From Alphaproteobacteria bacterium (GTDB lineage: Bacteria; Pseudomonadota; Alphaproteobacteria; GCA-2731375), in assembly GCA_016869175.1 (NCBI GenBank), contig VGEV01000005.1, positions 1-58,391 on the forward strand: a stretch of 58,391 nt of DNA, written 5' to 3'. A program made the position numbers and the translations under genes. Shown here piece after piece: positions 98 through 46,410 of this stretch. The first letter of the stretch is position 1. Every line of letters begins with the position of its first letter. Below the pieces are notes generated by a model. It had not been told where the DNA came from, searched no databases, and saw nothing but the letters and a program-made list of their open reading frames with translations.

Positions 98-150
98 CCG
101 TCAGCCGTGATGCATTTTTACTCCGGCGTTGACATGGCGTTGTTGTTAAC

Positions 151-310
151 CGGTGACAGCTTTCCTTTTCGGCATTCCACACGAGCCGCCGGGACGCTCG
201 CCGGCATGCCGCCGGCGGAGCGAGAAGCCGTACCGCCACCAGATGTCCGCCGCCTTGAAATCATAAACTGTCATCGGTTTTTGTCACCGGTTTTGTCAGC
301 GGTTTCTCGC
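151..310. repeat. Dispersed convergent-repeat element, copy 1 (CGGTGACAGC ... ATAAACTGTCATCGGTTTTTGTCACCGGTTTTGTCAGCGG)
   Basis: Forward unit at 151-160, reverse-oriented 12-13 bp tandem units at 268-305; shares GAAATCATAAACTGTCATCGGT exactly (257-278) with 46296-46317. Confidence 0.7.
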
Positions 311-46076: not shown

Positions 46077-46410
46077 AATACCGGTGACAGCTTACAAATA
46101 CCGTGACAGAATACCGTGACAGAATACCCAGAATACCCCCAGAATACCGGCGACAGCTTATTTTTTCGAACGCTAAACTCCAGTGAAAATCCCGTGAAAA
46201 TCCGGTGACGGTTTACTTTTTTCACCGGTCGACGAGCCACCGCTCTTAGCTGGCCGGTGCCGCCGGAGGGTCGTCGGTCGGCCGCCAGCGTGGTCGAAAT
46301 CATAAACTGTCATCGGTATTTCTGTCACTGGTATTGCCACCGGTATTCATAAACTGTCGCCGGTATTGCGACCGGTATTGCGGACCATTTCCGGTGACAG
46401 TATATGTTTT
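46077..46410. repeat. Dispersed convergent-array repeat element, copy 2
   Basis: Six head-to-tail AATACC..(GACAG/CAG) units (46077-46156), CGGTGACGGTTTACTTTTTTCACCGG, GC-rich core, five inverted units ending in GGTATT (46307-46379), and a last forward CCGGTGACAGTATA (46391-46404). Confidence 0.85.

Follow-up and report, generated by a model that had tools for sequence, protein, structure and literature searches.

Facing repeat arrays in an alphaproteobacterial contig are very probably dispersed, locally amplified ends of a TIRtron

Introduction

What are the short repeats that face each other across a GC-rich core between the 3′ ends of an amidase gene and a CoA-transferase gene? The locus lies in a 58,391-nucleotide stretch of alphaproteobacterial DNA (contig VGEV01000005.1), which was analysed as a whole and is referred to here as the window. 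A sequence-only reading had described two convergent tandem arrays and proposed a REP/MITE-like element that expands by unit duplication, with a structured RNA or a protein-binding array as other options. Our analysis suggests that the arrays are very probably the dispersed and locally amplified ends (TIRs) of a TIRtron, that is, an HUH tyrosine transposase gene (TIRYT) with its inverted ends.

Results

Two facing arms of short units

Inspection of the sequence placed AATACC at 46077, 46097, 46110, 46123, 46132, and 46143 on the + strand and at 46315, 46330, 46342, 46362, and 46374 on the − strand. These 11 AATACC-type units form two facing arms (46077-46379; Table 1), confirming all units and both convergent arms listed in the sequence-only reading. 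AATACC occurs 25 times in the window versus 5.0 times expected, a count reached by 0 shuffles, and 11 of these 25 fall inside the 303 bases of the arms. The density is not reproduced in random sequence: dinucleotide resampling of 46077-46410 gave 0.24 AATACC-type units on average and 3 at most. The Pfam matches of the neighbouring genes confirmed that the element lies between two convergent 3′ ends.

Table 1. Features of the repeat locus, its neighbours, and a second family copy in the window.
Feature	Position	Strand	Description	Basis
Left arm	46077-46156	+	Six tandem units, AATACC + GGTGACAG or shortened GGTGACAG	Sequence; AATACC count versus shuffles
Inner sub-array, left arm	about 46178-46226	+	AACTCCAGTG-AAAATCCCGTG-AAAATCCGGTGACGGTTTAC / AAAATCCGGTGACGGTTTACTTTTTTCACCG, tail AAATCC	Sequence
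GC-rich core	46227-46302		Not common to other family loci	Masked all-against-all BLASTN
Right arm	46303-46379	−	Five units reading inward	Sequence, pattern matches, AATACC count
Extra forward unit outside right arm	46389-46410	+	TTCCGGTGACAGTATATGTTTT	Exact pattern match CCGGTGACAGTATA, 46391-46404
Amidase, PF01425	44615-46012	+	3′ end faces array	
Family III CoA-transferase, PF02515	46430-47887	−	3′ end faces array	
Second, smaller family copy	150-290		Forward CCGGTGACAGCTTT at 150; reverse CCGATGACAGTTTA at 264-277; further reverse unit at ~281	

Complete units continue inward with YWTAY and then a T-rich stretch (a conserved extension); after a shortened unit the next one begins at once, without the YWTA extension. 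In the left arm, the extension CTTA is found after the first (46077-46090) and last (46143-46156) units; in the right arm, two units are complete (46303-46320 and 46350-46367) and the remaining ones are shortened. The end of the inner sub-array is CCGGTGACGGTTTAC (46202-46216), and the 14-base pattern used below matches it with one mismatch at 46202-46215. The sub-array (46178 onwards), the YWTAY-(T-rich) extension, and the second copy at ~150-290 were absent from the sequence-only reading. This second copy is located ~150 bases from the contig end, and a copy on another contig (C224, L051) has similar adjoining sequence.

That the locus is not a CRISPR array had been noticed before, and we agree: the units are 9-14 bases long and stand head to tail in both orientations, versus repeats of 24-48 bp with unique spacers.

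Folded as DNA, the two focal arms are predicted to form one long hairpin (−75 kcal/mol, z = −7.1). This strong predicted pairing, together with the convergent-gene location, would suit a structured RNA or a bidirectional terminator between the two genes. However, an Rfam scan of the window returned no match, the fold exists because the arms are inverted ends, and the same units also occur in one-sided arms without such pairing. We therefore regard this explanation, raised earlier for the RNA, as extremely improbable. It is possible that the array serves as a terminator as a by-product.

The units are dispersed, and their cores are unrelated

A search with CCGGTGACAGYWTA (14-base pattern, at most one mismatch) gave 83 matches in the 3.97 Mb genome, 38 forward and 45 reverse, versus 5 for the reversed control, so that the locus does have other copies. 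The genome regions extracted around the matches contain ~25 clusters, mostly intergenic, one of which is the small copy in the window; across the genome, the end sequence occurs singly, as dimers, and in clusters. From 77 complete ends we derived the consensus (A/T-rich)-C-CGGTGACAG-YWTA-Y-(T-rich). Further copies may be concealed by assembly breaks, since several clusters are close to the ends of contigs.

Genes around the clusters were predicted with a codon-usage model trained on confirmed genes, which is approximate and recovers the amidase and CoA-transferase genes. By this prediction, 24 of the 25 clusters overlap no gene and the remaining one falls in the leader of the transposase gene; the 17 clusters with both neighbours scored are convergent in 8 cases, codirectional in 7, and divergent in 2. 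Empty sites were sought through the amidase and CoA-transferase gene pair in relatives from outside the genus, but in those examined the two best matches were located on different contigs and no adjacency was seen.

A frequent cluster layout is a forward arm, an unrelated core, and a reverse arm, with inner gaps of ~43-215 bp at several loci, and many clusters are one-sided. The two-armed layout is what a classical MITE would show, namely one small non-autonomous two-ended element with a common interior, moved by TIRYT, and short palindromic end-to-end forms in two other genomes (G041 and G021) also fit such an element. However, masked all-against-all BLASTN revealed no convincing homology between the cores of different loci. 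The sole strong match was an in-place duplication at L044 (C165, 845-1375), where ~105 bp of core plus ends are repeated at 88% identity; whole two-armed elements can thus duplicate in place. Moreover, tails from opposite arms resemble each other no more than tails from different loci do. Because the cores are unrelated between loci, the clusters are not a MITE family, and we consider the MITE explanation improbable. As many clusters are one-sided and the two-armed ones lack a common interior, movement as one element is unproven.

The two palindromes are near-perfect with a small loop (L158, G041:C58, ~840-900; L159, G021:C304, ~825-890) and each joins a pair of inverted CGGTGACAGTATAC ends together with the tails, reminiscent of REPINs. 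In G021, no transposase match above threshold was found.

The units flank the only Y1 transposase gene of the genome

The genome contains a single Y1_Tnp match, a 240-aa protein encoded at C92:6736-7455 (L032). It scored 43 bits against PF01797 (Y1_Tnp), the only family found in the Pfam search, and 71 bits against the NCBIfam model REP_Tyr_transpos (REP-associated tyrosine transposase), below the cut-off of 80; a profile match to the solved TnpA-REP structure 4er8 was obtained at 2e-7. The catalytic HVH (H60, H62), Y119, and N123-P124 are invariant among 12 relatives. Its length and motifs agree with membership in TnpAY1 subclass 2.1 (Quentin et al., 2018, PMC6006769), which equals group 1 of Bertels and is, according to Quentin et al., probably equivalent to the TIRYT described by Di Nocera et al. 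(PMC3733652).

Units flank this gene on both sides: three of the upstream units are reverse and one is forward, and at least three reverse units follow downstream of the gene. Since the upstream units are mostly reverse, the gene-bearing unit itself appears to be rearranged or nested. The two-armed clusters elsewhere have the convergent orientation of typical TIRs around such genes. The suspected link to a Y1/RAYT-type transposase was thus borne out by the sole Y1 gene of the genome, and it recurs in other genomes, as described below.

A canonical GTAG-type REP/BIME family would likewise be dispersed, intergenic, clustered in both orientations, and linked to a Y1 transposase. However, single units typically form no stable hairpin (none in the focal unit types, and a weak one of −2 kcal/mol in one variant), the consensus has no GTAG/GTGG foot, and the transposase is of the longer subclass 2.1 form and unlike those of the REP-associated subclasses. 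Such a family is hardly credible here. What survives of the REP/MITE-like label is an analogy with REPs, from which the unit differs in having no hairpin; the MITE-like part is not supported, given the unrelated cores.

The same end accompanies related transposases in other bacteria

The end found near the genes of related transposases is CGGTGACAG-YWTAC or nearly so at L069, L072, L088, L124, and L161, and a variant, GGGGACAC/GGGGACAG followed by TATA-like bases, was observed at L070, L081, L090, L131, and L136. Either the family's own end or a GGGGACAS end stands beside relatives in Alphaproteobacteria, in Halochromatium, and in the same family. Seven or more copies of the exact motif were counted in only four of 385 genomes of the class (G000, 43; G005, 8; G057, 8; G349, 7), and each of the four encodes a TIRYT (56-100% identity) whose borders carry the motif. 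A TIRYT at ≥50% identity was present in 4/4 high-copy genomes versus 0/11 zero-copy controls, which were our own pick from the zero-count genomes (Fisher p = 7e-4).

Short non-palindromic intergenic repeats with a consensus of 15-20 bp might alternatively be an array of sites bound by a transcriptional regulator or a nucleoid protein, independent of transposition. This protein-binding alternative is very improbable: the patchy distribution follows the transposase gene, the motif keeps its place on either side of that gene in distantly related bacteria, and a location more often convergent (8/17) than divergent (2/17) is a poor place for transcription-start control.

Two further observations were made beside transposase genes. 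At L151 (G057:C44, 62-562 onward), an array of seven units in forward orientation, in part with a period of 32 bases, precedes TIRYT gene fragments that match residues 1-37 and 105-141 only and thus stands beside a decaying transposase gene. At L130, L120, and L138 (same family or class), a different type of Y1 transposase has ends like GGGGTCAGGTCTT and comparable reiteration of flank plus end, for example the repeated TGACCCCTCAAATG at L130.

Each arm grows locally by repeating flank and end

The own seed of an end (six tail bases + CGG) recurs in the outer 60 bases of 30/77 ends versus 3.7 with seeds from other loci, a statistic that treats neighbouring units as independent and whose p-value is hence optimistic. 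On the inner side, the own seed recurs at 16 of the ends versus 2.4 with other-locus seeds. These results support expansion by unit duplication, as the sequence-only reading had supposed.

Within a locus, units on the same strand have similar tails; the bases beyond the motif vary from locus to locus. As these bases nevertheless repeat with the motif inside an arm, growth is local. Between opposite arms of one locus, no likeness of tails beyond the between-locus level was detected (p = 0.66), so that tails common to both arms, as from a duplicated target or copying across a hairpin, are unsupported; the focal locus happens to have the AATACC tail in both arms. Since same-strand tails are alike and opposite-arm tails are not, each arm extends independently by repetition of flank plus end.

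Direct repeats of at least 10 bases within 70 bases were present in 20/72 flanks of related transposase genes versus 35/455 stretches elsewhere on the same contigs (p = 5e-6), part of these repeats being without the end motif. Examples are two copies of GAGTAAATGAGGGACAG at L073 and a set of three 27-base units at L161. It is conceivable, at somewhat less than even chances, that TIRYT transposases create and enlarge tandem arrays of their own ends together with adjoining host bases. We hold equally tentatively that one end seeds each site and a private unit then evolves there, unlike REP/REPIN copying.

Discussion

The arrays are associated with one transposase, ordered in orientation, dispersed, and locally duplicated; from this pattern in the sequence we infer their transposition. 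The proposed steps borrow from the biochemistry of IS200/IS605 and TnpA-REP, in which a tyrosine, single-stranded DNA, and a free 3′ end provide the model for cutting and joining (PMC8266576). The transposase would act on single-stranded DNA carrying two paired inverted ends, and its tyrosine would cut adjoining the GACAG end, at a position predicted by analogy. Rejoining of the strand elsewhere would seed new ends, and cut-and-rejoin, or slippage primed at the nick, would then duplicate flank plus end in place. Decayed units (CAG, CCCAG, GGTGGC) may have been imperfect when formed or may have decayed afterwards.

Subclass 2.1, which ranks among the largest bacterial Y1 groups, has been reported to be without associated REP-like repeats. 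One gene and ~80 copies of its end offer a direct substrate (an end such as AATACCGGTGACAGCTTAC) and a predicted cut site, and the arrays would record repeated processing at about one point.

REPINs and BIMEs with RAYT (Nunvar 2010, PMC2817692; Bertels and Rainey 2011, PMC3116915) are, like the present family, short non-coding inverted pairs between genes with a low-copy HUH transposase, and their pairs can fold as long hairpins. Here, in contrast, the unit is non-palindromic and without a GTAG foot, the interiors are unrelated, and copies number tens rather than hundreds. The arrays resemble solo ends, in the way that REPs are solo hairpins.

Members of TnpAY1 subclass 2.1 (PMC6006769) share with our transposase the length (median 238 aa versus 240 aa), NHVH, Y-x-x-LNP, a C-terminal extension, low copy number, and the lack of REP hairpins. 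A further mark of the subclass is a helix-turn-helix-like domain at the C-terminus; in our protein, Pfam returned Y1_Tnp alone. The subclass 2.1 survey found no REP-like sequences near the genes (PMC6006769), whereas here linear, non-hairpin ends are amplified genome-wide.

TIRtrons (Di Nocera et al., 2013, PMC3733652) likewise combine a Y1 HUH gene with inverted ends that lack the REP hairpin. Their end octamer GGGGWSAS, which marks some TIRs and not all (PMC3733652), is close to GGTGACAG here, with a single difference (T for G at position 3), and to GGGGACAC/G in relatives. In TIR families of TIRtrons, the end sequence is dispersed as singles and 'in dimers or clusters' (PMC3733652). Variable tandem arrays with locus-specific flank bases are a feature of the present family that we did not find described for TIRtrons (PMC3733652), and the open-licence literature searched yielded no account of flank plus end reiteration; local tandem arrays that include neighbouring bases thus look undescribed. 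The kind of element is already known, a TIR repeat family of a TIRYT of the TnpAY1 subclass 2.1 type; this family and its association with the transposase are new.
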